Source: Clostridiales bacterium
GTDB taxonomy: Bacteria; Bacillota; Clostridia; Lachnospirales; Lachnospiraceae
Length of the DNA stretch: 64,000 nt
Reading direction: 5' to 3'
Assembly (NCBI GenBank): GCA_020859985.1
Contig: JAJBVD010000034.1
Span: forward strand, 62,001 to 126,000
Shown: positions 15,863 through 57,646 of the stretch, piece by piece
Position numbering within the stretch: position 1 is the first letter of the stretch
How the letters are laid out: each line of letters begins with the position of its first letter
Notes under the pieces: model-generated
Told to the model about the DNA's origin: nothing
Database searches by the model: none
What the model saw: the letters and a program-made list of their open reading frames with translations, nothing else
Made by a program: the position numbers and the translations under genes

Positions 15863-15943
15863 ATGCGTCTGTGCTTTAATCACGCGCAGATTTCATTTCT
15901 GCACGATCTTTTCCTTCACACGCGCGGCGTTTTTCCGCGTATC

Positions 15944-30088: not shown

Positions 30089-30173
30089 TGATACCTGCGG
30101 ATTTCTCCGTACTTCGGTCTGCGCTGCCGCTTCGGTCCGCGCTAAACGAGCGCCTCCCGAAATCCTGGTATCA
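30089..30173. repeat. Inverted repeat between convergent AraC and livF genes
   Basis: Outer arms TGATACC and GGTATCA, then inner GGATTTC and GAAATCC, pair around a GC-rich centre. The right arm abuts the livF stop codon. It probably works as a two-way terminator or belongs to the dispersed palindromes of this genome. Confidence 0.6.
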
Positions 30174-33776: not shown

Positions 33777-33883
33777 GCCTCCAATCAGGACTGCGCATTC
33801 CGCAGATGCGTCCTCGCCGGATGGCATCCTCGTCCTGCGGACGGGATAAACCATGCGAAGCATATGTGCAGCCGCCGGAGGCA
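33777..33883. repeat. Intergenic repeat element between livJ-type and livH genes
   Basis: Ends TGCCTCC and GGAGGCA are inverted copies, and an inner hairpin pairs CGCAT with ATGCG. The core GGCATCC...CGGGATA...GAAGC resembles the core of the element at 11744-11917. Confidence 0.5.
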
Positions 33884-45435: not shown

Positions 45436-46608
45436 TTATGATACTCCTGTCCCGTCAAATGCCGGGATAAAGCTCTCGGCCGCAGTGCCGCCCTCCTGAA
45501 AAAATCCCTGCGTGACGCCAATCTGTACCGCATAATCCAGAAGCCGCTCATATTCCCGCTTGGTGACCGGGCGTCTTAAAAGCTCCAGAGCAGCACTCAG
45601 CCGCGCAGCGTTTTCTGCATGAGCAGCATTTTCTGCCTTACCAGTGCTGCCTGTTTTCGGATAAGTTTTCGAAAAAATATCCGCTGGCGGCGTATACTGG
45701 TTCATCAGACTGATATATATCTGATCCCCGTACGTATCATGAAGATAGGATACCACATGCTTCGCCTCCCGCACATGCCCCGGGAGAAGCAGGTGGCGTA
45801 CGATCACCCCGGCCTCCATCATGCACTCACCATCTTCGGCATCATCCATACCTTTCGCGTCATCTGTGATATTCGTATCATTTGAAATTTTTGTCTGGTT
45901 TGCAGTCTTCCTATCTTCCGAAGCTTCCGCAGCCTCAATGTTGTCCCTTACAAACCGCGGCCGCGGCTGCTGGCGCACCATCTCGCGGATTGCCGCTTTC
46001 GCGACCTCCGGGTAATCCTCTGCATGAGAATATGTTTTCGCCAGCGCCGGATCCAGATATTTCAGATCCGGCAGATAAATATCCACCAGCCCCTCTAGCA
46101 TACGAAGCGTTTCCACCGTCTCATAGCCGCTGCTGTTCCAGACGACCGGCAGGGACAGTCCCTGATCTTTGGCCAGCCGCAGCGCCATACAGACCTGCGG
46201 CGCATAATGTCCTGCCGTCACCAGATTGATGTTGAGCGCTCGCTGCGCTTCCAGCTCCAGAAAAATCTCCGCAAGGCGTTCCACGGATATCTCCTTTCCC
46301 GCCTGTCCTCGGGAGATTGCACGGTTCTGACAGTAAACGCAGCCCAATGGGCAGCCGGAAAAGAACACCGCCCCAGAGCCGCCCAAACGCGCAGCGTTTT
46401 TATCATGGGCGGCTCGACCTGCCGCCGAGCTCTGGCGAGGGGGCGCTTCCCCAGAACCGCCAGATTCTTTCCCCGATATACACAGTTCTTCCCAGAAATG
46501 CAGTGCCGCGCGCGCCACCCGCATTTTATCGTCCGCGTGACAGCGTCCCTTTTGCCCGCTCTCGCGGTCCGCGCCGCATCTGCGCGGACAGAGTGTGCAG
46601 CCGCCCAT
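45436..46608 (-). CDS. Radical SAM protein, PflA/PflX-like (AmmeMemoRadiSam-type), with two in-frame repeat insertions
   Basis: The 390-residue protein has an N-terminal cysteine cluster (GCTLCPRRCGADRESGQKGR then C) and the radical SAM CX3CX2C motif in FFSGCPLGCVYCQNRAIS. Further family stretches are LVTAGHYAPQVCMALRLAKD, VVWNSSGYETVETLRML, DIYLPDLKYLDPALAKTYSH and MNQYTPPADI. Family members run near 300 residues. The surplus is two copies of a palindromic coding repeat: one before the SAM motif (46378-46450, SSAAGRAAHDKNAARLGG) and one near the end (45590-45634, ENAAHAENAARLSA). A linker of mixed Asp/Asn/Thr (NQTKISNDTNITDDAK) adds more. The cluster is intact, so it may be functional. Substrate unknown. 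Confidence 0.82.
   Translation of the reverse strand: MGGCTLCPRRCGADRESGQKGRCHADDKMRVARAALHFWEELCISGKESGGSGEAPPRQSSAAGRAAHDKNAARLGGSGAVFFSGCPLGCVYCQNRAISRGQAGKEISVERLAEIFLELEAQRALNINLVTAGHYAPQVCMALRLAKDQGLSLPVVWNSSGYETVETLRMLEGLVDIYLPDLKYLDPALAKTYSHAEDYPEVAKAAIREMVRQQPRPRFVRDNIEAAEASEDRKTANQTKISNDTNITDDAKGMDDAEDGECMMEAGVIVRHLLLPGHVREAKHVVSYLHDTYGDQIYISLMNQYTPPADIFSKTYPKTGSTGKAENAAHAENAARLSAALELLRRPVTKREYERLLDYAVQIGVTQGFFQEGGTAAESFIPAFDGTGVS
45590..45634 (-). repeat. In-frame palindromic coding repeat, copy in radical SAM gene (3' part)
   Basis: The DNA GCGCAGCGTTTTCTGCATGA, read in the minus frame, gives AAHAENAARLSA. It matches the core of the copies at 47752, 48521 and 56588. Confidence 0.7.
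46378..46450 (-). repeat. In-frame palindromic coding repeat, long copy in radical SAM gene (5' part)
   Basis: This 73-base unit aligns over its whole length, by eye at about three quarters of positions, with 56588-56660. The palindromic half pairs GCCGCCCA with TGGGCGGC. The other half shares CCTGCCGCCGA and GAGGGGGCG. It encodes SSAAGRAAHDKNAARLGG in the minus frame. Confidence 0.75.
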
Positions 46609-46705
46609 GCCATGTCAATCCTTTCTTTATATCTTTTCTTTCATATCCATCTTTCTGTCTGTCTTTGTTTCCGCTGTCAGCTTTCTGCCCTCAGTCATCC
46701 TTCTG

Positions 46706-47623
46706 TCAGTCTTTTTCCGGCGCCGCCAGCACAAACACCGTCGCTATGATCAGCACAAATCCCAGCAGGTCAATCGCCACAAACGTCTCTTTCATCCAGA
46801 TAACAGAAAATACAGTCGCCGCCACCGGCTCTATACAGGCGTACAGTCCCGCCTGCACCGGCCCGATCAGACTAACGCTGTGCAGATAAAGGGAAAAACT
46901 TGTCATCGTGCCCAGACAGATAATCACAAGCAGTACACCGATCAGTTCCGCGTCAATCTGCGGCATATGATTCCAGGGACGCATGACCGCTGACAGCACA
47001 ACCCCGCCGATCAGCATTCCCCACGCCAGAATAAGCGGAGACGGAAATTGCGTAAGCAGCCGCCTCGGTTTTACCGTATAGATTACAAGCCCCACAGCGG
47101 ATAACAATCCCATGCCCAGTGCCCGTCCGGAAAGAGCCAGAGAGCCCGGCTTCCCGTGCGTCGCAATCAGAAAAATACCGCAAAGAGCGAACAGCACCGC
47201 GATAACTTCTTTTTTCTTCGGACGCTGCCGCTCGGAAATGCAGATATACACAACCGTCATCGCAGGACCCAGATACTGGATCACTGTAGCAGTCCCTGCG
47301 TTCGACCACTCAATAGTCTGAAAATACGAATACTGGCAAAGCATCATGCCCGCGATCGCATACACCAGAATGTCTTTCGCATTGCGCTTCTCCTTCCAGA
47401 CAGACAATGCTCTTTCATGGTCGCGGAGCAAAAAATACAACAGTAAAAGCAATCCGGCGCTGGTGAGCCGAATCGGCACCAGCCACGTCGCCGTCACACC
47501 CTTATTCTGAAACAGGTACTGGCCGCACACGCCGGAGATGCCCCAGAGCATGCCGCCTGCTAACGCGCACAGGATTCCCCTCGTTTTCTTTGATCCCTCT
47601 TTTGTATTCTTTTTTGTGTCCAT
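46706..47623 (-). CDS. EamA-family (DMT) transporter, first copy
   Basis: The 305-residue membrane protein has ten predicted helices in two EamA halves, for example ILCALAGGMLWGISGVCGQY, YAIAGMMLCQYSYFQTIEWS NAGTATVIQYLGP and the second-half SFSLYLHSVSLIGPVQAGLY followed by ACIEPVAATVF. ATG 47623 follows AAGGGGA; a TTG at 47647 is less likely. EamA proteins export metabolites or amino acids. A second EamA gene lies directly upstream, but the two differ greatly in sequence. Confidence 0.88.
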   Translation of the reverse strand: MDTKKNTKEGSKKTRGILCALAGGMLWGISGVCGQYLFQNKGVTATWLVPIRLTSAGLLLLLYFLLRDHERALSVWKEKRNAKDILVYAIAGMMLCQYSYFQTIEWSNAGTATVIQYLGPAMTVVYICISERQRPKKKEVIAVLFALCGIFLIATHGKPGSLALSGRALGMGLLSAVGLVIYTVKPRRLLTQFPSPLILAWGMLIGGVVLSAVMRPWNHMPQIDAELIGVLLVIICLGTMTSFSLYLHSVSLIGPVQAGLYACIEPVAATVFSVIWMKETFVAIDLLGFVLIIATVFVLAAPEKD

Positions 47624-47751
47624 GTTGGGATTTCCCCTTTCCGTCAAGTTTCTTCGCTGTTAATTTCGTGTTCCGGTCTGCGCTTCATAACCGACCCTCC
47701 ACGGTTATTTCATGAAAATTATGCCGTTACTCTATCATCATTTTCATGAAC

Positions 47752-47789
47752 GCTGCTCAAACGCGCAGCGTTTTCGGCATAAGCAGAGC
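47752..47789. repeat. Intergenic copy of the palindromic coding repeat
   Basis: The sequence CTCAAACGCGCAGCGTTTTC followed by GGCATAAGCAGAGC lies just after the stop of the second EamA gene (47797). Read in one minus frame it still gives SAYAENAARLSS, the same peptide motif as the coding copies, although it is not in a gene. Confidence 0.65.
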
Positions 47790-47796
47790 AACAAAC

Positions 47797-48777
47797 TCAT
47801 TGCTCTACATGTTTTGCCTTCTGCGGCAGCTGCACCAGGATGATCGCCAGGAACATCAGCAGACAGCCCAGAAGCTCTTTTCTGCTCAGGCTCTGGTGCA
47901 GGATCAGCCAGCCGGACAGCACGGAAACCACCGACTCCAGGCTGAGAATCAGAGAAGCGACGGTCGGGTCGGTCCCTTTTTGACCGATAATCTGAAGCGT
48001 ATACGCCACACCGCACGAGAAAATACCGGCATAGCCGATGGGCAGCCAGGCCTGTATGATTGCGCCGACAGAAGGCGTCTCGAAAATCAGCATCATTATC
48101 CCGGAAAGAATCCCGCAGACGAAAAACTGAATACACGACATGCGTACTCCGTCCACCTTCGGCGAAAAATAGTCAATGATCAGAATATGTACGGAAAAAG
48201 CGAGCGCGCACAGAAGAATCAGAATATCGCCTGTGCCAATCGAAAAATTCTCCGTGATACAAAGCAAATATAAGCCCGCCACCGCGATCACAACGCTGAT
48301 CCAGGTTTTGACGCCTGATTTTTTCCCAAAAAAAATCTCAATCACCGGCACCAAAACAATATACAATGCCGTGATAAAACCGGCCTTTCCTACCGTCGTG
48401 TACTGAATCCCGATCTGTTGCAGATTGGACGCCACACAGAGGGCGATGCCGCAGCAGATACCACCAACCAGAAGTGTGCGGCGCTCCGCTTTGCCTTTCC
48501 TGTTCTTCTCCTGCTCCGCAGCACCGCTCAAACGCGCAGCATCCTCCGCATTCACGGAGCCGTCCGTCTTCTCCCGGCCGGACTCCTGCCGTATCTTCTG
48601 CCGGTCCATCAACGCAATACACGGGATCAGCACCAAGCCGCCCAGAATGCAGCGCGTAAAATTAAACGTAAACGGTTCCACATAATCCATCCCGACGCTC
48701 TGCGCCACAAACGCCACGCCCCAGATTACCGCTGTCAATAATAATGTCAAAGAACTGCGCATCGATGTCTTTTTCAT
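47797..48777 (-). CDS. EamA-family (DMT) transporter, second copy, with repeat insertion
   Basis: The 326-residue membrane protein shows LTLLLTAVIWGVAFVAQSVG, SNLQQIGIQYTTVGKAGFIT and the second half FSCGVAYTLQIIGQKGTDPT with LILSLESVVSVLSGWLIL. After the second helix there is a loop of about 40 hydrophilic residues that contains NAEDAARLSGAAEQEKN, a copy of the dispersed coding repeat (48521-48556). Family members have a short loop there. ATG 48777 follows GAGGAG. The gene follows cca after 14 bases. Confidence 0.88.
   Translation of the reverse strand: MKKTSMRSSLTLLLTAVIWGVAFVAQSVGMDYVEPFTFNFTRCILGGLVLIPCIALMDRQKIRQESGREKTDGSVNAEDAARLSGAAEQEKNRKGKAERRTLLVGGICCGIALCVASNLQQIGIQYTTVGKAGFITALYIVLVPVIEIFFGKKSGVKTWISVVIAVAGLYLLCITENFSIGTGDILILLCALAFSVHILIIDYFSPKVDGVRMSCIQFFVCGILSGIMMLIFETPSVGAIIQAWLPIGYAGIFSCGVAYTLQIIGQKGTDPTVASLILSLESVVSVLSGWLILHQSLSRKELLGCLLMFLAIILVQLPQKAKHVEQ
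48521..48556 (-). repeat. In-frame palindromic coding repeat, copy in EamA gene
   Basis: GCTCAAACGCGCAGCATCCT followed by CCGCATTC encodes NAEDAARLSGA in the minus frame. It keeps the left arm exactly, while the right arm has drifted. Confidence 0.7.
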
Positions 48778-48791
48778 GTTGTCTCCTCTTT

Positions 48792-50123
48792 TCACATCTC
48801 CCTGCTCATCGCCAGCAGATATTCCTTTGTATTTCGTTCCGGATACTGAAGCACTTCCATCAGAAGCGTCTGCAAAAGTTTCCCAAGCTCCGGTCCCGGC
48901 TTTTTCCCATCTGCGATCAGGTCATTGCCTGATATCGCCAGTTCGCCAAGGGACAGGCAGTCCTTATGTGCTTTCACATCCTGCCAGATATGCTCCACTT
49001 CCTTTAAATAATCCAGCTTCTGCCCGATCACGTCCGGATGCTGTGCCAAAATATCTGCCCGCTTTACCAGAAGGAAGCGGTCAAACAGCTCCTGCCCACC
49101 GATCTCATACGCATTCAGACGCACGTCATGCGCACTGAGCTTCGGATAACGCGAATGGCAGCGCACCAGTGCACAGACCTGTCTTGTCGTCTCATTGTCA
49201 AACTTCAGGCGGTGCAAAATTTCTCTGGCGATAACCTCGCTGTGCGCCGCGTGCCCGTGAAAATGATCAATCCCCGCTTCGTCCGTCTCAAATACCTCCG
49301 GCTTGCCCATATCATGAAACAGCATGGTAAGCCGCAGAACCTTGTCCGCCGGAATATTCTGCATCGCGACAAGAGTATGCTCTCCGGTCGAATACGCATG
49401 ATGCGGATTGTTCTGCCGCTGCAGCATGATCCGGTCAAATTCCGGCAGAACCACCGCCGTAATCCCGCACTCATATGCCAGCCGCAGCCAGTGCGGTCTG
49501 GGAGAAACAATCAGCTTGACAAGCTCCGTCTGAATCCGCTCCGCGCTCACCAGGCGCAGGTTGCCCGCCATCTCATGAATCGCGCCTTTGACGCCGTCCG
49601 CCAGTTCAAATCCCAGCTGTGCTGCGAAGCGCACGGCCCTGAGCATCCGCAGCGCATCCTCCCCGAACCGTTCCTGAGGACTGCCCACGCACCGAATCAT
49701 CCGCTCTTTTAGGTCCTTCATCCCGCCGAACTCATCCACCAGTCCGGTCTCAGGCGAATACGCCATCGCATTGATCGTAAAATCGCGGCGTTTCAGATCC
49801 TCTGTCAGGCTGGCCGTAAACGTGACCTGTTTCGGATGCCGCCCATCCTCATAATCACCGTCAATCCGGTAGGTCGTGACCTCAAAGCCCTCATGCTCCT
49901 CAAGAACAGTCACCGTACCGTGCTGAATTCCTGTATCTACCGTATGAGCAAACAGCCGCTTGACCTGAGCAGGCGATGCGGATGTCGTAATATCCCAGTC
50001 CTCCGGCCTTCTTCCGAGCAGGGAATCCCGCACACAGCCGCCAACCACATATGCTTCATATCCATTTTCATGTAAAATCCGCAGAATCCGCCCCGCTTTT
50101 GGGGGAATCTCAATAAAAGCCAT
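48792..50123 (-). CDS. cca: CCA tRNA nucleotidyltransferase
   Basis: The 443-residue class II enzyme adds or repairs the CCA end of tRNA. The head has YVVGGCVRDSLLGRRPEDWD (catalytic DxD in DWDIT), the RRDFTINAMAY motif, the nucleotide-selecting ERFGEDALRMLRAVRFAAQL, and an HD-type domain (TMLFHDMGKPEVFETDEAG, DHFHGHAAHSEV). The HD region marks the bacterial type with possible phosphohydrolase activity. AGGAGG precedes ATG 50123. It begins an apparent cca-EamA unit. Confidence 0.92.
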   Translation of the reverse strand: MAFIEIPPKAGRILRILHENGYEAYVVGGCVRDSLLGRRPEDWDITTSASPAQVKRLFAHTVDTGIQHGTVTVLEEHEGFEVTTYRIDGDYEDGRHPKQVTFTASLTEDLKRRDFTINAMAYSPETGLVDEFGGMKDLKERMIRCVGSPQERFGEDALRMLRAVRFAAQLGFELADGVKGAIHEMAGNLRLVSAERIQTELVKLIVSPRPHWLRLAYECGITAVVLPEFDRIMLQRQNNPHHAYSTGEHTLVAMQNIPADKVLRLTMLFHDMGKPEVFETDEAGIDHFHGHAAHSEVIAREILHRLKFDNETTRQVCALVRCHSRYPKLSAHDVRLNAYEIGGQELFDRFLLVKRADILAQHPDVIGQKLDYLKEVEHIWQDVKAHKDCLSLGELAISGNDLIADGKKPGPELGKLLQTLLMEVLQYPERNTKEYLLAMSREM

Positions 50124-50245
50124 GCTGCCTCCTGTTACTGCCGTCCATTTTATAGTAAACGACGCAAGTTCTTTCCTATCTTATCACAACCCTTTTTTTC
50201 TGAAAAGCAAAAAGTGAAAAAACTGTGTCCCTGTCAGAAATGTTG

Positions 50246-50274
50246 TTTACTTTGTCGAATTTCAATGTTATAGT
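50246..50274 (+). promoter_or_regulatory. Promoter of the trigger-factor-like lipoprotein gene
   Basis: TTTACT (50246-50251) and TATAGT (50269-50274) are 17 bases apart. The leader to ATG 50418 is about 135 bases, with no structure noticed. Confidence 0.55.
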
Positions 50275-50417
50275 TACACTAAATATTGTATCATACAGGT
50301 TTCGGCAGCAGAACATTCTGGAAGGCCGCTTTGTTCCTCTGGTTTTCCATATCAGCTCTGTCCGGGACTGTGTCTGCAGACAACACATATACATAAAGAA
50401 AAGGGGACCTTAAAAAT

Positions 50418-51692
50418 ATGAAACGAAGATCCGTTCTGATTCTTACCGGACTGACCGCCGCGCTGATGCTCACCGCATGCGGCAGCGACAATTCTGAAAC
50501 CACCGAGACGGAGGCTGCCGCCGTGACGGAAGCTGAAACAGAAGCAGAGGAAGGATTGGAAGCGATCACTCCATCCGATTATCTGGTTGAAAATGCCTCA
50601 GACTACATCACCGTAGGCGATCTGGAGGGTCTGGAAGTGACACAGTACACTTATGAGATCACAGACGAAACCGTTCAGGAAGAGATTGAATATGAACTCG
50701 ATTTGTACAGTGAAGAGACCACTGTCGACCGGGCGGCCGAATCCGGCGATGTAATTTATCTGACGTTGATTTCTACCGTTGAAGGCTCTGACGAATCCTA
50801 TTCAGAAGATACCTATTTTTATCTCGGCGATGAGGAATATGGGGAAGCATTTGATGATGCCCTGATCGGTGCCTCTGCTGCTGATGTACTGGAATTCAAC
50901 ATAACCTTTAGCGAAGATGCCGCAGAGGAGCTGCTGATCGACGAGACCTGGGCTGGTGAGACAGTCAATTTTGAAGCCTACATTGACAGCGTCTGCGAGA
51001 TATCCGCACCGGAATACGATGACGATTTTGTCGCAGAAAATACCGATTATTCTACCACCGAAGAATACGAGGAAGCGTTGAGAGCGCAGCTGGAAGAGGA
51101 ATACGAAGAGTACAGCTACGCAGATGTTCTGGAAGCGCTGATCACAGCCGCTCTGGATGAGTGTGAGATTTCTGAAATTCCGGATGACCTGTACGAGTCC
51201 TGCTACGAGGAAAACGTTGAGAGTTATGCTTTCTTCCTTGACACTACGGATGAAGAGGAAATGCTTGAAGAGCTTGAAATGACTCAGGAAGAGTTCGACG
51301 CGGAAGTCGAAGATCTGGCAGCTCGCCGTCTGCTGATCAGCTACATCTGTGAGGCCAACGACATTGAAGTTACCGAAGAAGATTACGTCGCTTATGTAGA
51401 AGAATACGCGGAATACTATGGCTACGAGAGCGCTGCTGATTTCGAGGCCGACATGCTTCGCTCCTATCTGGTATGGAGTTTGTATGAATCTCAGGCCACA
51501 GAGATCCTTTATAACTCTGCCGACATCACCACCGAATCCTACGACGAAATGGTCCTGACCGATGAGGAAGCTGAATTCCTGGACGAGGAGGAACTGGACG
51601 AAGAGGAGCTGGATGAAGAGGAGCTGGATGAAGAGACAGAAGAAGAGCTTACGGAAGAGGACGACACGGCCAATGAGGACGAGACAGAATAA
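50418..51692 (+). CDS. Secreted acidic trigger-factor-like lipoprotein (FKBP-type domain plus chaperone arms)
   Basis: The 424-residue product has a signal peptide and lipobox (ALMLTACGSD), then an E/T/A linker. A domain follows that resembles the middle FKBP domain of trigger factor (SGDVIYLTLISTVEGSDESY, YFYLGDEEYGEAFDDALIG, WAGETVNFEAYIDSV). The helical C-terminal part resembles the arms (RLLISYICEANDIEVTEEDY, VAYVEEYAEYYGYESAADFE). The ribosome-binding N-domain of true trigger factor is missing. The protein is extremely acidic and ends in four LDEEE repeats. It is likely an extracytoplasmic folding factor, like PrsA in place though not in sequence. That role is inference. Confidence 0.72.
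   Translation: MKRRSVLILTGLTAALMLTACGSDNSETTETEAAAVTEAETEAEEGLEAITPSDYLVENASDYITVGDLEGLEVTQYTYEITDETVQEEIEYELDLYSEETTVDRAAESGDVIYLTLISTVEGSDESYSEDTYFYLGDEEYGEAFDDALIGASAADVLEFNITFSEDAAEELLIDETWAGETVNFEAYIDSVCEISAPEYDDDFVAENTDYSTTEEYEEALRAQLEEEYEEYSYADVLEALITAALDECEISEIPDDLYESCYEENVESYAFFLDTTDEEEMLEELEMTQEEFDAEVEDLAARRLLISYICEANDIEVTEEDYVAYVEEYAEYYGYESAADFEADMLRSYLVWSLYESQATEILYNSADITTESYDEMVLTDEEAEFLDEEELDEEELDEEELDEETEEELTEEDDTANEDETE
51579..51638 (+). repeat. Four 15-base coding tandem repeats (LDEEE)
   Basis: Units CTGGACGAGGAGGAA and CTGGATGAAGAGGAG follow one another four times at the end of the lipoprotein gene. Copy number may vary by slippage. Confidence 0.75.
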
Positions 51693-51737
51693 AGTTTTCT
51701 GTCAATTTTGGCAGAATAAAATTTTCCGTCTTTTTGC

Positions 51738-51765
51738 TTGACAGTACCCCATATTGTGCTATAAT
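51738..51765 (+). promoter_or_regulatory. Consensus promoter of the cold shock gene
   Basis: TTGACA (51738-51743) and TATAAT (51760-51765) are exact consensus hexamers 16 bases apart, the strongest promoter seen in the window. The transcript should start near 51772, leaving about 133 bases of leader. Confidence 0.85.
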
Positions 51766-51791
51766 GGGCTGTGCTAAAGGATTGACAGGAT

Positions 51792-51863
51792 AAAATTTCA
51801 CTAACTCTTATAGATTATGAAATGAAACCCCTTGTAGTCTATAACAGTTAGTGAAATTTTTTT
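51792..51863 (+). terminator. Terminator-like long hairpin with T7 tract in the cold shock gene leader
   Basis: Perfect 15-base arms AAAATTTCACTAACT (51792-51806) and AGTTAGTGAAATTTT (51846-51860) enclose a partly paired centre (TATAGA/TCTATA) and are followed by seven Ts. It lies between the promoter and the csp ribosome binding site. It could be a temperature-sensitive attenuator, or it could end a separate small RNA of about 90 bases. Confidence 0.75.
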
Positions 51864-51904
51864 CCGGTTATATGTTCAAAGCAATATTTTTAGGAGGTAC
51901 CATC

Positions 51905-52105
51905 ATGAATAAGGGTACAGTAAAATGGTTCAACGCAGAAAAAGGTTATGGCTTTATTACCGGTGAGAACGGTTCTGATGTATTCGTACATTTTTCTGCA
52001 ATCCAGGGCGAAGGCTTTAAGACCCTCGAAGAAGGCCAGGCAGTTTCTTATGATTTGACAGAAGGCGCTCGCGGAATGCAGGCTGCTAACGTGGTAAAGC
52101 TTTAA
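51905..52105 (+). CDS. Cold shock protein, CspA family
   Basis: The 66-residue single cold shock domain has RNP1 in KGYGFITG and RNP2 in VFVHFSAI, with [17 protein letters not shown] at the start and AANVVKL at the end. It binds single-stranded RNA and DNA and melts RNA structure. ATG 51905 follows TAGGAGG; the longer frame from 51851 is leader sequence. A consensus promoter and a structured leader with a terminator-like hairpin precede it, and a strong terminator follows at 52124. Confidence 0.95.
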
Positions 52106-52123
52106 GAATATGTGTGCCAGACG

Positions 52124-52156
52124 AAAATACGCTGTCCATCCGGACAGCGTATTTTT
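52124..52156 (+). terminator. Intrinsic terminator of the cold shock gene
   Basis: Perfect 14-base arms AAAATACGCTGTCC and GGACAGCGTATTTT, with a four-base loop, run into T5. The A tract on the left makes it usable from both sides, so it can also end the leftward flavodoxin transcript. Confidence 0.9.
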
Positions 52157-52157
52157 A

Positions 52158-52280
52158 TGCGCAGGGCTGCGCAAGGAATTTTTCCGACTGACGTCGGACG
52201 CAGCTCGCGCGGCGGGCAGGAGCCGGCAAGCCGTCTCTTGCCCGATTTCAGTGCGCAGGGCTGCGTACCGAATATTTCCG
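52158..52280. repeat. Direct repeat pair flanking a GC-rich hairpin, between csp and flavodoxin genes
   Basis: Two 29-base units (52158-52186 and 52252-52280) begin with TGCGCAGGGCTGCG and end with TTTCCG; they agree at 25 of 29 positions. Between them CGGGCA pairs with TTGCCCG. Nothing in the 176-base gap looks coding. Confidence 0.6.
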
Positions 52281-52282
52281 GT

Positions 52283-52705
52283 TTACAGCAGCTGCGACAG
52301 CTTTTCGCCCAGTGCGGCAAGAGCCTGCTCTGCCTCATCGTCCGGAGCGTCTGCGCAGATCACGCCCTCCCCGTCTACTACCGCAGCGCCGGCTTTCTGC
52401 ATACGCTCTACCCAGAGACGCATCCACTCTCCGTCTCCCCAGCCATATGAACCGAAAAGTCCGATGGTCTTTCCTTCCACATTCTTTTCCAGTTCCGCCA
52501 CAAACGGTTCAACGATCGTCTCTTCCAGTTCCTCATCGCCCATAGCCGGACAGCCAAGCGCAAATACCTTTTCATCTGCAAGCTCCGCCGGAGTGATATC
52601 TTCCATAGAAATCACTTTTGCTTCCTTAGCCCCCTTTGCGATGGCCTCCGCCATAGACTCCGTATTTCCTGAACCACTCCAGAACACTACCTTTAACTCC
52701 GCCAT
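52283..52705 (-). CDS. Flavodoxin, short-chain
   Basis: The 140-residue product has the FMN phosphate loop VVFWSGSGNTESMAEAIAKG, the second loop LGCPAMGDEELEE, GLFGSYGWGDGEWMRLWVER (the W and G/Y residues contact the flavin) and an acidic C-terminal half. It is an electron carrier that can replace ferredoxin when iron is scarce. ATG 52705 follows AGGAGG. It is the last gene of a three-gene unit with DUF2325 and DUF3793, whose promoter carries a probable metal-repressor site. Confidence 0.92.
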   Translation of the reverse strand: MAELKVVFWSGSGNTESMAEAIAKGAKEAKVISMEDITPAELADEKVFALGCPAMGDEELEETIVEPFVAELEKNVEGKTIGLFGSYGWGDGEWMRLWVERMQKAGAAVVDGEGVICADAPDDEAEQALAALGEKLSQLL

Positions 52706-52801
52706 TTTTTCTATCCTCCTGATAAAATAAATATTTTTATAGTCCAAACAGTTCCGTAAAACGTTCGAACCATGAACTGCCAGATTCAAATAACGTGCCT
52801 C

Positions 52802-53392
52802 TCAGGCCAGATCCGGTTTCCACTGAAGCTCTGAAGCACGAAAACATTTCCAGATATCGGCAATACGCCATCCCTGACCGCACAGCTTCAGAGCCATCCG
52901 TCTTGCAGATTCATACAAGGCAAAAATCCGATCCGCATAAGCCACATCATCATATACTTTCCAGTAACCGGACCGTTTAAAATTTTTCCCGCTATTTTCG
53001 ATAAATCCCTTCACATCATTCAGCGGATAGCCGAAGAGAACACCCATTTCATGCGGAAAGTCAGAGACTTTTTGCTTATACTCCCGAAAGCGTTCCGCCA
53101 GTCTTTCCAGTACCGCTTCCATGTCTTCGTTCTCATACCCGCATTCCCGAAGAAATTCACTCTTCTGCTGCTCCTTCAGGAGCTGTTGAAATGCATCCGG
53201 GTCAACCAGAAACCAGTAATCCTTTTCCGGCGAAGAATATAGCAAATGCGCACGGAGTCCTGTCCCTTTCAGGACATGCCGCAATCCATTCTGATTGCCC
53301 TTTTCCACGATCAGAAGATTGGACGGCTTGACTCCGGCGATCACCGGCGCACATTGCTGCCCCAGCACATAACCGATTGCTTCTGTTCCCAT
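52802..53392 (-). CDS. DUF3793 family protein
   Basis: The 196-residue cytoplasmic protein has the DUF3793 hallmark FPHEMGVLFGYPLNDVKGFI ENSGKNFKRSGYWKVY, with an N-terminal APVIAGVKPSNLLIV stretch and a C-terminal helical end. The family is confined to Firmicutes and is commonly beside flavodoxin and iron-uptake genes; its biochemical role is not known. It lies between the DUF2325 and flavodoxin genes, read in the same direction. The near-invariant H, Y and K residues of the hallmark suggest a binding or catalytic site. Confidence 0.85.
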   Translation of the reverse strand: MGTEAIGYVLGQQCAPVIAGVKPSNLLIVEKGNQNGLRHVLKGTGLRAHLLYSSPEKDYWFLVDPDAFQQLLKEQQKSEFLRECGYENEDMEAVLERLAERFREYKQKVSDFPHEMGVLFGYPLNDVKGFIENSGKNFKRSGYWKVYDDVAYADRIFALYESARRMALKLCGQGWRIADIWKCFRASELQWKPDLA

Positions 53393-53525
53393 CCTCCTAT
53401 GCCTCCATCTGCCAAAAATGATGATTATATCGTCTGCGAATTTCAGAACCTTTATCCATCCAGATATTTACATTTTTCTGCATGCAAAATTTGCTTTCAG
53501 CGAATGGCGTTCTCTGCTTTTCCGA

Positions 53526-53807
53526 TTACGCGATATGCTCACTCAGAAGATCCTCCAGTGCCGAAGCACTGCTGGAATGGCAGCGAACCACCGGGATCTT
53601 ATTTCTCTTTGCTTCCTGAAGTGTACTCTTTACCATTTTGTGAGACACTGTGTTTACAAAAAGGATAAACATATCGGGATTGCCGAGCTTTTTGCGGATC
53701 GCACCGTTTTCTTTTGCGAAAACCTTTGCCTTGCAGCCATAATTCCTGCAGATACCCTCGTACTGACACACCATTCCCTCATTGCCGCCTATAATTACTA
53801 CACTCAT
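53526..53807 (-). CDS. DUF2325 family small protein
   Basis: The 93-residue protein opens with MSVVIIGGNEGMVCQYEGIC and continues with a Rossmann-like alternation (DMFILFVNTVSHKMVKSTLQ) and the end RNKIPVVRCHSSSASALEDL. This is the DUF2325 pattern, with conserved G-G-N, Cys and H residues. The function is unknown, and a redox or nucleotide-binding role is only guessed. GGGAGG precedes ATG 53807. It is the first gene of the operon and lies behind a leader terminator and two palindromic boxes. Confidence 0.83.
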   Translation of the reverse strand: MSVVIIGGNEGMVCQYEGICRNYGCKAKVFAKENGAIRKKLGNPDMFILFVNTVSHKMVKSTLQEAKRNKIPVVRCHSSSASALEDLLSEHIA

Positions 53808-53818
53808 CTGAGCCTCCC

Positions 53819-53836
53819 GGTTAGAATAGTCTAACC
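53819..53836. promoter_or_regulatory. Palindrome GGTTAGA...TCTAACC overlapping the DUF2325 ribosome binding region
   Basis: Arms GGTTAGA and TCTAACC are perfect inverted copies around ATAG. The sequence resembles DtxR/IdeR-type iron boxes (TTAGGTTAG-CTAACCTAA). Its position just before the GGGAGG would also let the RNA hairpin hide the ribosome site. Which of the two applies is open. Confidence 0.5.
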
Positions 53837-53846
53837 TTTTCCCCTT

Positions 53847-53869
53847 AAAAAGGCGCTCATTTGAGCGCC
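53847..53869 (-). terminator. Terminator between the DUF2325 promoter and gene
   Basis: On the minus strand a perfect eight-base stem (GGCGCTCA/TGAGCGCC, two-base loop) runs into five Ts. It lies 40 bases before the DUF2325 start and about 60 bases after the promoter. It may be the end of the upstream alpha-galactosidase transcript or an attenuator in the leader. Confidence 0.7.
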
Positions 53870-53920
53870 AGTGAACATTTGCGCATTGTTTTGCGATAAA
53901 GTTAGTTTTATCTTTTATTT

Positions 53921-53966
53921 GTTAGCTTACGCTAACTACTATAACAATACTTCCTGCCTTTGTCAA
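53921..53966 (-). promoter_or_regulatory. Promoter and operator of the DUF2325-DUF3793-flavodoxin operon
   Basis: Read on the minus strand, TTGACA (53961-53966) and TATAGT (53938-53943) are 17 bases apart. The palindrome GTTAGC-TTAC-GCTAAC (53921-53936) covers the predicted transcription start, the usual place for a repressor. Its shape matches DtxR/MntR-type metal boxes. No such repressor gene is in the window. Confidence 0.7.
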
Positions 53967-53975
53967 GGGAATTAT

Positions 53976-56378
53976 TCAGATTTTCCTTATATGAAGCAGC
54001 CGGGTCTGAAAATCTCCCATCACCCGCGGCATCAGAATCCCTGCATACATCAAAGCCGCACCCTGATAGCACTTCTTAGCAGCAGCACTCCCACAGTCTG
54101 CTGCAGCAATGTCCCCACCGTCTCTCTCTGTACTATCTCCACCGCCTGCTGCGGCCTCATTTCCAGCGGTCTGTCCCTGAATTTCCGCACAGGTCTCCGC
54201 AAGGGATACCTCCGTCACGCTGTAATACGCATCCGGATCAAGCCCCAGCAGGCGGATTCGGCGGCTCTTATAATTGATCTGTGAGAGCACCTGAACATAG
54301 GTACACAGTGCCTCCGTCCGATCCTCCGAGACCACCATAAAGCAGTCGTACAAGTGATTTTCCCGCCAGGAAGCAATGCGGTAATATTCGCCGTTTCGGA
54401 TCAGATGACTGAATTGCTTATAATGCGCCACCTGTCCGGGAATCTGATCTTTTTCCTCATCCGGAAGCCTTGTAATATCCAGTTCATAACCAAATGTACC
54501 GGAGAGCGCCACCACTCCTCTGGTCTCAAACGGCGTCACGCGGCCCGTACCGTGGTTCGGACAGATCGACACATGCGCACCAATACAGGAGAGCGGATAG
54601 AGCAGCTGCGTGCCCTCCTGAATCGACAGACGCTCGATGGCGTCCGTGTCGTCTGAGCACCAGATCTGCGGGCTGTAATAGAGCATGCCCGGATCGAATC
54701 TGCCGCCGCCGGAGCAGCAGTTTTCCAGAAGCAGCTGCGGAAAGTCCTTCGTCAGGCGATCCTGCAGACCGTAGACCGCCAGCATATAGCGATGCATAAT
54801 CTCTCCCTGCCGGTCAGCAGGCAGCGTCAGATTGCCCACGTCCGAGAGCAGACGGTTCATGTCCCATTTTACGTACTCGATATTTGCAGAGGAAAGGACA
54901 TCACGGATCATCCCATAGACATACTCCGCAACCTCCGGGCGGCTTAAGTCCAGCACATACTGTGCGCGGGCCTGCCCCAGCTCCCGGCCGTTCATCTGCA
55001 GCGCCCAATCCGGATGCTCACGATAGAGGTTGGAATCCTCTGAAACCATCTCCGGCTCCAGCCAGATGCCCAGCTTCATCCCCAGCTTATTGACTTCCTG
55101 CGCCAGATAAGTAAACCCGCCCGGAAGCTTTTTCTCATTCACCTGCCAGTCGCCAAGGCTGCTGTCGTCATTGCTCCTGTATCCAAACCAGCCGTCGTCC
55201 ACGACCAGCATCTCAATCCCGCGCTCTGCCGCCTCGCGCGCGATAGCCAACAGCTTTTCCGTGTCAAAATTAAAATACGTCGCTTCCCAGTTGTTGATCA
55301 GCACCGGACGCCGCCGGTCTTTCCAGTATCCACGGATCAGGTGATTGCGGTACAGGCGGTGAAAAGCTCTCGTCATCTTCCCAAGTCCCTCATCCGAGTA
55401 TACCAGCACCGCCTCCGGCGCCTGAAAGCTTTCTCCCGGCTCCAGCTTCCAGCAAAAACGATCCGGATGAATTCCCATCACCATACGGGTCTGGTCAAAC
55501 TGATCCCGCATCGCCTTCGCAAGAAAATTCCCCGAATAGACAAAATTCATCGCATAAACGTCGCCTGTCGTCTGTGTACAATTCTCCGTGACGAGTGCCA
55601 TAAACGGGTGATCCTGATGGCTGGAAATACCACGGATCGATTCGGTCACAACACTGCCATAGCCCAGCTTCTGCCGCTGTATCTGCCGCTCTCTGGACCA
55701 GGACCCCGGCAGAGTAAGTACCTCCAGATTCTCCTGCTCCACATGCAGGCAGGCGGACAGCACTTTTGTCAGATACACGCTCCGCTCTCCGCCGTTCTCA
55801 ACCCGGACGCTCCTCGTGATCGCGTCTACATCCTCAAACGCCGTGTAAGAAAGGACCACCTGAAGACCGGTCACCTCATCCTCCATCGTCACTTCAAGTG
55901 TGCTGCAGCTGCAGGACGCTGTCTGCGCCGTCTGTACCGCTTCTTTGTCCTTTTGTCCGGTTGTGTGCACATCGTCGGAAGAGGCGTCCGAGTGCGCAGC
56001 AGAAGCCGCATCCCAGGTTGCAGGAAGCCCTTCCAGAGGTCTTTTGCCGGCATAGATCCGATGAGAACGGTAGCGAAGCTCCAATCCTTCCTGCCCATCC
56101 ATTGTGCGGATACCGATACAGCTCTCTCTGGCATCCCCGATCCCGACGGACGGGTACTCCATCGGATAAAAGTCAAAATATCCCGCTTTTTCGCGCCGCA
56201 GTATGGACGGCGGCTGAGGCCGCTCATCTTCCCGCAGCAGGTAGCCAAGATCTGTATCCTTTATCTTCTTTCCATAATAAATCTGACCCGGATAGCTTTC
56301 ATCCGTCAGACCGAACACGTAGCTGGTATTCGGTGTATCCAGCTTAAAAATGTGGTGCGCTTCGTCGTAGCAAATCAT
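53976..56378 (-). CDS. Alpha-galactosidase GH36, with two loop insertions
   Basis: The 800-residue enzyme has the GH36 loop VDDGWFGYRSNDDSS, the nucleophile in EYVKWDMNRLLSDVGN, and the acid/base region CCSGGGRFDPGMLYYSPQIW followed by SDDTDAIERL. Compared with the other GH36 protein of the window (17476), it has two extra hydrophilic stretches. One of about 33 residues lies near residue 150 (DAASAAHSDASSDDVH). One of about 25 lies near residue 755 (GNEAAAGGGDSTERDGG). Both fall in loops outside the barrel. ATG 56378 follows AGAGGAG and lies 11 bases after the epimerase stop. No signal peptide. It should release galactose from oligosaccharides in the cytoplasm. Confidence 0.9.
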   Translation of the reverse strand: MICYDEAHHIFKLDTPNTSYVFGLTDESYPGQIYYGKKIKDTDLGYLLREDERPQPPSILRREKAGYFDFYPMEYPSVGIGDARESCIGIRTMDGQEGLELRYRSHRIYAGKRPLEGLPATWDAASAAHSDASSDDVHTTGQKDKEAVQTAQTASCSCSTLEVTMEDEVTGLQVVLSYTAFEDVDAITRSVRVENGGERSVYLTKVLSACLHVEQENLEVLTLPGSWSRERQIQRQKLGYGSVVTESIRGISSHQDHPFMALVTENCTQTTGDVYAMNFVYSGNFLAKAMRDQFDQTRMVMGIHPDRFCWKLEPGESFQAPEAVLVYSDEGLGKMTRAFHRLYRNHLIRGYWKDRRRPVLINNWEATYFNFDTEKLLAIAREAAERGIEMLVVDDGWFGYRSNDDSSLGDWQVNEKKLPGGFTYLAQEVNKLGMKLGIWLEPEMVSEDSNLYREHPDWALQMNGRELGQARAQYVLDLSRPEVAEYVYGMIRDVLSSANIEYVKWDMNRLLSDVGNLTLPADRQGEIMHRYMLAVYGLQDRLTKDFPQLLLENCCSGGGRFDPGMLYYSPQIWCSDDTDAIERLSIQEGTQLLYPLSCIGAHVSICPNHGTGRVTPFETRGVVALSGTFGYELDITRLPDEEKDQIPGQVAHYKQFSHLIRNGEYYRIASWRENHLYDCFMVVSEDRTEALCTYVQVLSQINYKSRRIRLLGLDPDAYYSVTEVSLAETCAEIQGQTAGNEAAAGGGDSTERDGGDIAAADCGSAAAKKCYQGAALMYAGILMPRVMGDFQTRLLHIRKI

Positions 56379-56389
56379 AGCTGCTCCTC

Positions 56390-57646
56390 TCATCCAAGTC
56401 TGCGGATCACTTCCATGCACATCCGGCCGTTGTGGTACGGACATTTCCACGGCTGCACGATTGGCAGCTCCATCGGCGTATGGTCGGCGTTCACATTTTC
56501 AAACCACTCCGACCCTTCGCGCGGGTCTACAAAATAAGAGCAGATGTAGTCCCAGATATCTTTCGCAGCAGTGAGATATTTTTCCGCGCCGCTCAAACGC
56601 TCTGCGTTTTCTGCATGAGCGGCGCAACCTGCCGCCGAACGCAAGTGAGGGGGCGTTTCTTTGTCCGCGCCGCTTTCTTTCTGCCAGGCGTTGATAAAGC
56701 CCACGATGGCTTCAGCCTGAATCCACCAGACACGCTTCGTATCGTCCACGCCGTTCTCCGCCTCGTTCAGCACAGAATGGTCACGGTACGCGCGCTCATA
56801 AATATTTTCCGCAATCTCCGCTGTGATCGGCGCGACTGACTCCGTATAGAATGGATTGTCCAGCACCTCAAGACCTCGATCCAGCAACCAGGAGGTCTCA
56901 ATATCGTGCCCATAAGAATACAGGTCGATCAGCGTATTCCAGGTGCGGTCAAAGAACACCTCCTGTCTGCCCTTTTCCGGATTGTATACCTTCTGTGAGA
57001 ACAGATCGAGCATAAACTCCAGCCGCTCCGCCGTAAAACTGTGATGTGTCACACGGTAAAGCTCCGTATACGCTTCGAACACATGCAGCAGCGTATTCAT
57101 CGTCTTTTCCGCCATCACACCGTTCTCCGAAAGCTTTTCATTCGACACCGGTCGGAAATAACGGTCAAACGCTTCCAGATAACCATATTCATCCGTGCAT
57201 TTTTCCTCGATCACATCCTGCAGGCCAAAGGCGATATCCAGCGCCTCCTGATCCTTCGACGCGTCATAATAAGAAGACAGCGCGTAGATTGCAAACGCCT
57301 GATTATAAGTATGCTTCGTATCGTCGTTCGGCTTCCCATCATAGGTCACCGACCAGTATACGCCGCCCTGTTCCTTATCCAGACAGTGATCCCGCAGAAA
57401 ACGGTACGCATGAGCAGCGTTCTCCAACAGTGTATCCTCTTTTAAAAGCAGATACGCGTTCGAGAAAAACCATAAAATCCGGCTGTTCAGAATACAGCCT
57501 TTCTCATAGGTCGGATCGCGCTGCAGGTCATACCCCATATAACCGCAGAAACCGCCATTTTCCTCGTCCTTCAGTCCCGACCAGAACGGGATCAGTTTTT
57601 CTGTCAGATGCTGCTTTACTTCCTTTGCAAAATCCTTCGTCTCCAT
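56390..57646 (-). CDS. N-acylglucosamine/cellobiose 2-epimerase family enzyme, with repeat insertion
   Basis: The 418-residue protein belongs to the AGE family (alpha6/alpha6 barrel). It has IPFWSGLKDEENGGFCGYMG, the catalytic-type His residues in VYWSVTYDGKPNDDTKHTYN and SYGHDIETSWLLDRGLEVLD, and RVWWIQAEAIVGFINAWQ. The pattern fits cellobiose 2-epimerase, which changes a reducing-end glucose to mannose. Near residue 335 there is an insertion ending AAHAENAERLSGAEK (56588-56660), a copy of the palindromic coding repeat. Without it the length would be about 392, as usual. ATG 57646 follows GGGGA; ATG 57652 is an alternative. It is upstream of, and coupled to, the GH36 gene. Confidence 0.87.
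   Translation of the reverse strand: METKDFAKEVKQHLTEKLIPFWSGLKDEENGGFCGYMGYDLQRDPTYEKGCILNSRILWFFSNAYLLLKEDTLLENAAHAYRFLRDHCLDKEQGGVYWSVTYDGKPNDDTKHTYNQAFAIYALSSYYDASKDQEALDIAFGLQDVIEEKCTDEYGYLEAFDRYFRPVSNEKLSENGVMAEKTMNTLLHVFEAYTELYRVTHHSFTAERLEFMLDLFSQKVYNPEKGRQEVFFDRTWNTLIDLYSYGHDIETSWLLDRGLEVLDNPFYTESVAPITAEIAENIYERAYRDHSVLNEAENGVDDTKRVWWIQAEAIVGFINAWQKESGADKETPPHLRSAAGCAAHAENAERLSGAEKYLTAAKDIWDYICSYFVDPREGSEWFENVNADHTPMELPIVQPWKCPYHNGRMCMEVIRRLG
56588..56660 (-). repeat. In-frame palindromic coding repeat, long copy in epimerase gene
   Basis: GCCGCTCAAACGC at the left pairs with the inverse of GCAGAAAACGC and GCCGCTCATG at the right, forming a bulged hairpin. The adjoining half shares CCTGCCGCCGA and GAGGGGGCG with 46378-46450. 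It encodes RSAAGCAAHAENAERLSG in the minus frame. Confidence 0.8.

Follow-up and report, generated by a model that had tools for sequence, protein, structure and literature searches.

Rickettsia and Wolbachia are the best-known hosts of selfish palindromes that sit in frame within genes. In earlier reports, Rickettsia and Wolbachia palindromic elements (RPE and WPE) are palindromic repeats lying in frame in many unrelated, often conserved genes (PMC2229807, PMC10969869, PMC3767692), with an RPE length of 105-146 bp (PMC2229807), RPE-1 to RPE-3 at similar sites in orthologues (PMC3767692) and WPE-like in-frame inserts in Wolbachia priA (PMC4224334). Intragenic repetitive extragenic palindromes (REPs) and other short repeats are also described in some free-living bacteria (PMC3733652, PMC2229807). 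The GTAG- and CGTC-tagged REPs are short palindromes, some intragenic in several species and many of those in replication or repair genes; the CGTC repeats include RPE-4 and RPE-6, lack a dedicated transposase and were named from five phyla, the word Firmicutes being absent from the main text (PMC3733652). The subject of the present analysis is a palindromic repeat in a 64,000-nt stretch of DNA from a Clostridiales bacterium of the Lachnospiraceae (contig JAJBVD010000034.1, positions 62,001 to 126,000; the whole stretch is called the window), which corresponds to Rfam family RF02987, GA-cis. GA-cis has been regarded as intergenic and cis-regulatory, and its defining paper is reportedly that of Weinberg and others, 2017. 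It is considered highly probable (about 0.86) that the repeat is a small non-autonomous mobile palindromic element of the Rfam GA-cis family, with a two-hairpin unit of about 75-78 nt that is gene-compatible in this lineage. The genes that hold its copies are conserved and unrelated to one another; insertion is precise to within a few bases, both orientations and all frames occur, and the orthologues from sister species either lack the copy, share it or have one elsewhere in the same gene.

An initial annotation of the window had described five palindromic copies, all of which were located where it placed them and are here called repeat family D1. The 18-nt core with up to three mismatches occurred six times in the window against 0.10 expected; the sixth match, at 15916-15933 (L016), had no unit in the adjoining flanks. 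Two of the five copies, in the radical SAM gene and the epimerase, were full units, and the other three were half units consisting of the 3' hairpin only. In a full unit, on the coding-like strand, GGAAACGCCCCCTCGCTnnGCnTCGGCGGCAGnTCG is followed by a nine-base arm and a spacer (ATGCAGA, for example); then come a small inner hairpin, whose loop has three bases, and the complementary arm, usually with a T after it. Both full units were returned by an Rfam scan of the window as GA-cis above the gathering score of 34.7 bits, whereas no GA-cis match was obtained for the half units at E up to 10. The copies and their host genes were as follows.

46372..46454, plus strand (Rfam strand): full GA-cis unit, 46.2 bits, read on the minus strand in the radical SAM gene as ..SGEAPPRQSSAAGRAAHDKNAARLGGSG..
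56581..56664, plus strand (Rfam strand): full GA-cis unit, 41.5 bits, read on the minus strand in the epimerase as ..KETPPHLRSAAGCAAHAENAERLSGAE..
45590..45634, minus strand: half unit in the radical SAM gene, repeat family D1
47752..47789, minus strand: half unit between two EamA genes, core with 0 mismatches, not present in relative G063
48521..48556, minus strand: half unit in the EamA transporter gene, core with 3 mismatches, diverged version in relative G008
45436..46608, minus strand: host gene (open reading frame, ORF) for a radical SAM protein, 390 aa, PF04055
47797..48795, minus strand: host gene (ORF) for an EamA transporter, 332 aa, PF00892
56390..57772, minus strand: host gene (ORF) for a cellobiose 2-epimerase-like protein, 460 aa as listed, PF07221, true start probably further in

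The home genome was searched with GA-cis, and 46 matches were obtained at E<=1, 36 of them above the gathering score; none of 14 control genomes gave a match over the cut-off, so that the copy number is beyond chance. Three matches (L073, L075 and L076; 23.7, 19.8 and 18.2 bits) were dropped as a different element and 43 were kept, with L061, L072 and L074 left out of alignment A2, and L072 and L074 left out of one further analysis. The supposition in the initial annotation that no equivalent had been described in Lachnospiraceae thus has to be given up, since the sequence was already known as GA-cis: the two-hairpin architecture and the conserved CUGCCGCCGA..GAGGGGGCG block are the same. Within open-access text, the only use of the term GA-cis was found in a table of the Rfam 15 report that lists improved structures, and the passage concerned does not mention mobility; in titles and the beginnings of abstracts no in-frame palindromic element of this kind was reported for Lachnospiraceae or Firmicutes.

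A copy was counted as inside a gene when a stop-to-stop frame of at least 200 aa spanned it, and nearby control windows were put through the same test. By this definition the home copies do not occupy the intergenic position assumed for GA-cis, 38 of 43 lying within ORFs of at least 200 aa (control, 277/338). The host frames of these 38 copies were sense +1 in 21, +2 in 5, +0 in 2 and antisense in 10; the sense bias (28/38, p = 0.005) is a preference, not a rule. Among 40 high-scoring copies examined of 372 matches in ten clade relatives, the 24 intragenic ones comprised 12 sense and 12 antisense copies over all six frames. The single frame and strand that the initial annotation had attributed to the coding copies therefore holds for the four in the window and fails genome-wide, where all six frames are used: 21 of the 38 intragenic home copies share that frame and 17 are spread over the five others.

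A Pfam family over the curated cut-off was assigned to 32 of the 37 scanned home host ORFs and to all three window genes (35/40 proteins); L050, L051, L067 and L068 had no match, and L049 only one below the cut-off. The hosts included MutS, MutL, PriA, thymidine kinase, a Mur ligase, a polyprenyl synthase and a RelA/SpoT-domain protein, together with a two-domain response regulator, a UPF0004/radical SAM/TRAM protein, ketopantoate reductase, a GalT-type transferase and a DnaB_2-domain protein. Positions of inserts relative to domains were judged by eye from the reported ranges, without statistics: some inserts fell in N-terminal tails or in linkers, such as those separating MutS I from II, preceding MutL_C, joining a receiver to a DNA-binding domain or separating ApbA from ApbA_C; others lay inside a domain, as in the PriA zinc ribbon, a macro domain, a glycosyltransferase and a Mur ligase. 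An in-frame unit is present in each of the home genome's mutL and mutS genes (L032, L034), and an effect on the mutation rate is conceivable.

For the detection of empty sites, defined as a length difference of 60-90 nt between a copy and a relative, a protein search covered 35 of the 43 copies (33 in three close relatives, among the matches listed, and two in 40 genus genomes), and all 43 copies were compared with the relatives' DNA retrieved, some pairs representing one place retrieved twice. A usable relative was available for at least 30 copies and an empty site was found for at least 23; relatives thus do not in general carry the same residues at the same sites. In 22 of the 23 copies with empty sites only inserts that are multiples of three were observed, with lengths of 66-84 nt, most often 75 or 78. 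The lower flank identity to the best relative was 77-97%, and at least 85% in 19 of the 23. Within the range of 60-90 nt, 64 of 67 pairs differed by multiples of three, as did 58 of 59 with anchors within 40 nt; these 59 close-anchor locus pairs spanned 66 to 84 nt except for one of 89 nt (L067 in G008, stops present), and two 80-nt pairs (L040) came from distant anchors. Comparison with the relatives bears out that insertions are precise to a few bases.

Individual loci illustrate the polymorphism. A predicted AAA-ATPase gene (L035) carries a 75-nt insert relative to G008, with flanks 97-98% identical. In an ABC-class ATPase gene (L063) the 75-nt home insert faces an empty site in G063, which has its own unit about 160 nt upstream, so that the two sites are mutually empty. 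The copy L046 is present in G063 and missing from G008 and G013; L069 is present in G013 and missing from G008 and G063; L049 is present in G008 and missing from G013; and the PriA copy is present in G063 and missing from G008 and G013. At the full unit, the radical SAM gene is 84 nt longer than in five relatives, the site being filled in G008 and G013 too and G063 having the hairpin only. G063 has a diverged counterpart of the half unit at 45590-45634; none could be recognised in G008 and G013. A search for a clean empty site of the EamA copy found none, G013 showing a gap, and its extra length is not proven to be an insertion; the claim that the other hosts are longer than usual is borne out for the radical SAM gene.

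The epimerase had been noted as longer than its family by about one unit, and its excess at the insert indeed amounts to 28 aa against G063 and G013 and 22 aa against G008. The unit is absent from all three relatives, with six other residues kept at the site in G008. The insert separates VGFINAWQK from EKYLTAAKDIW; in the nearest solved chain, cellobiose 2-epimerase 3vw5_A, these two stretches adjoin directly (chain residues 319 and 320). The insert is missing from two cellobiose 2-epimerase chains among the matches listed. Unrelated, longer inserts occupy the same loop in G062 and G026 (L078, L080), and the site is therefore a tolerant one. Over most of its length the epimerase is 95% identical to that of G008 in protein and 90% in DNA, which suggests purifying selection.

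The pairing of the outer stem was compared among the 43 copies. Although the 5' arms comprised 37 different 9-mers, 32 copies paired perfectly with their own 3' arm and 41 paired at 8 or 9 positions; when arms were cross-paired with the tails of other copies, the corresponding figures were 2% and 16%. Double-sided changes were found at 7 of 20 pairs among 12 copies, and the copies shared between species included one compensatory double change (L069 versus G013). Because pairing persists while the arm sequence varies between copies, the outer stem would be needed for movement, and selection on the stem may act mainly while the element moves.

Outside the home genome the distribution was patchy. 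GA-cis was present in 16 of 36 genomes of the genus, with up to 54 copies, and the 24 genomes searched from the order's other families had none; across the wider family at E<=1e-6 it was found in 21 of 299 genomes (21/298 genera, home genome included). The exact core pattern, searched in named genomes, gave 34 stretches, all in metagenome-assembled genomes titled Lachnospiraceae or Clostridiales bacterium. From the other genera 68 of 98 matches in 18 of 20 genomes were examined, and only 14 of the 68 lay in ORFs of at least 200 aa; of the control windows, 439 of 523 did (Fisher: home versus other genera, p = 8.5e-13; other genera versus own control, p = 6e-26). The home search (E<=1) was laxer than that of the other genera (E<=1e-6); at the latter stringency 18 of 19 home copies were in such frames, and so were 11 of the 11 home matches returned by the family-wide search itself. 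The other-genus copies had a model-aligned length of 82-105, a G+C content of 52% and 2.19 open frames on average. A mostly intergenic repeat thus looks gene-tolerant in one lineage, and since GA-cis is mostly intergenic in other Lachnospiraceae genera, in-gene tolerance would appear derived here. By eye, an AT-rich stretch that resembles TATAAT and has ATG at its end often lay before the intergenic copies in other genera (L254-L313), as though these had inserted beside promoter -10 boxes.

According to the preferred reading, GA-cis would move non-autonomously, its hairpins being recognised by an enzyme that acts in trans, and the outer stem would be required for this movement. The GC-rich unit holds few stop codons and is therefore compatible with genes; insertions found in genes add multiples of three and keep the frame. 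Translation of the insert would yield some 25 residues, mostly hydrophilic, and the insertions retained by selection would be those in tolerant places, for example turns, N-terminal tails and linkers between domains. Selection for openness in all six frames was considered as well and found weak, the 64% G+C content explaining most of the openness.

Candidate routes of movement gave the following results. A Y1/RAYT (REP-associated tyrosine) transposase as driver was not supported: PF01797 was present in 8 of 11 genus genomes with at least 20 copies, somewhat more often than in genus genomes without GA-cis (9 of 20), and was absent from copy-rich G013, G030 and G035 (26, 48 and 37 copies), of which G013 is rated 100% complete, absence from a draft genome being no proof. 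A dedicated RAYT is therefore unlikely. The variable stem arm as a target-site duplication, for which the upstream flank was compared with the 3' arm or the downstream flank, was rejected: 10 of 43 copies had a match of at least 7 nt, and 200 permutations gave 3.8 such copies on average and 10 at most. The strongest flank matches (L032, L041, L061 and L067) look like tandem or partial units, and one of 11 nt at the epimerase copy (L048) is unexplained. Phage carriage was searched for with two exact patterns, without matches in viral contigs. A gene flanked by two copies in G242 (L258) was rejected as a transposon, its translation resembling a flavoprotein oxidoreductase, and at the multi-copy locus L264 nothing transposase-like was seen by eye.

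Several observations weigh against a mobile, gene-compatible element. No mobilising enzyme was identified, and 27 junction comparisons of 25 copies gave no consistent target-site duplication, a short duplication being allowed at a few junctions (L031, L039 and L062); flank divergence limits the resolution of these comparisons. Ten of 115 copy-relative pairs were not multiples of three, most of them outside the range of 60-90 nt, and multiples of three are to be expected anyway because any surviving coding indel keeps the frame. Open frames averaged 4.49 of 6 against 4.03 in shuffles of the same composition, a slight excess. In the clade relatives 24 of 40 copies lay in ORFs of at least 200 aa, slightly fewer than in the control (178/237, p = 0.055), and unevenly so (4/4 in G008, 1/4 in G010 and 0/4 in G030). 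The species-shared copies L049, L057 and L058 each lose a pair on one side. The gene status of the hosts, finally, was assigned from open frames and Pfam rather than annotation.

Three other explanations were weighed against the same data. The repeat may be a structured cis-regulatory or small RNA whose location inside genes is either incidental or a sign of antisense or intragenic regulators, as its strong pairing with covariation, its Rfam type ('Gene; sRNA') and its mostly intergenic position in other genera would suggest; it is improbable, given that 38 of 43 home copies fall within unrelated genes with long open frames, both orientations and all six frames being represented, and that presence varies between close species. 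The stable, conserved hairpins within conserved genes, one of them in the PriA zinc-ribbon region, could also point to an insert removed before or during translation, as a mini-intron, by intein-like excision or by ribosome bypassing over the hairpin. Removal or bypassing at the RNA level needs no frame, yet 22 of the 23 empty-site copies add only multiples of three, and it has no need of a stop-free insert, yet a frame of at least 200 aa runs through 38 of 43 copies, so that such removal, too, is given little credence.

That the copies are not mobile at all and go back to an ancestral peptide module, conserved or of low complexity, whose instances resemble one another through drift and composition, is the least credible of the three and very unlikely indeed. 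Some half units are diverged and common to relatives, and G062 and G026 carry other, unrelated inserts in the epimerase loop, which would fit such a module; the nucleotide conservation is independent of reading frame, however, intergenic copies and tandem arrays (period 78, in G020 and G010) exist, and the precise empty sites make it hard to hold for 23 copies. The mobile GA-cis element can be carried further into a rather doubtful, speculative version, in which a formerly intergenic repeat became a still-moving, frame-neutral 'translatable' element in one Lachnospiraceae lineage and, via hairpin recognition in trans, seeded peptides of about 25 residues into dozens of conserved proteins including MutS, MutL and PriA, with GA-cis, CGTC-tagged REPs and some RPE as branches of one old hairpin superfamily.

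Other repeats were observed beside or within the units. A second family (CTCCGCTTCGGTCGGCGCTAAACG..hairpin..CAGCGCC) gave 19 pattern matches in the home genome (L318-L336; row L333 re-reads the L326 copy, leaving 18 distinct copies examined) and has a diverged copy in the window at 30130-30147; it is mostly intergenic (6/19 rows in ORFs of at least 200 aa), and the four loci scanned had no Rfam match over the gathering score. Three separate insertions (L053, L071 and, in G008, the radical SAM site, L315) hold it at one and the same position within GA-cis, as if the composite had moved as one unit. A third short repeat of about 39 nt (..GAAGGGCGAGGATGCCACCC..) is nested in some GA-cis units (L072, L074, L340 and L202) and also occurs in the window at 33819-33838; one shared insertion has it in G008 and lacks it in the home genome. 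Elsewhere in the window, an Rfam cspA thermoregulator match at 51763-52156 (81.7 bits, just over the cut-off of 78), which contains a 26-nt inverted repeat at 51792-51860, probably lies upstream of a cold-shock gene.

One family can here be compared where it is mostly intergenic (other genera) and where it is mostly intragenic (home genome), with empty and filled sites between species that are about 90% identical, and the comparison lets one test how proteins come to tolerate selfish DNA and whether inserts supply new protein sequence. For annotators, length outliers in these genomes can be repeat insertions. Rfam files GA-cis as RNA, whereas the home copies are dispersed insertions in coding genes, polymorphic between close species, which raises the question whether the family should stay so filed.

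Compared with the REPs, the GA-cis unit is longer and has two hairpins. CGTC near the foot of the hairpin was found in 36 of 54 readable other-genus copies (of 68) against 5 of 43 in the home genome; a tag of 4 nt is weak, and the link to CGTC-tagged REPs is a lead only. With RPE and WPE, GA-cis shares a palindromic unit lying in frame in protein genes, here too with a copy in priA. It differs in that an RPE unit would measure 105-150 bp in Rickettsiales and the GA-cis inserts measure 66-84 nt in Lachnospiraceae, and in that RPE-1 to RPE-3 occupy similar sites in orthologues whereas many GA-cis sites are polymorphic. The likeness to Rickettsia elements proposed in the initial annotation is thus supported as behaviour, with in-frame palindromic units in unrelated genes and empty sites in relatives, and the analogy holds in the sense that GA-cis would work like RPE, as an analogue rather than as a demonstrated member of that group.

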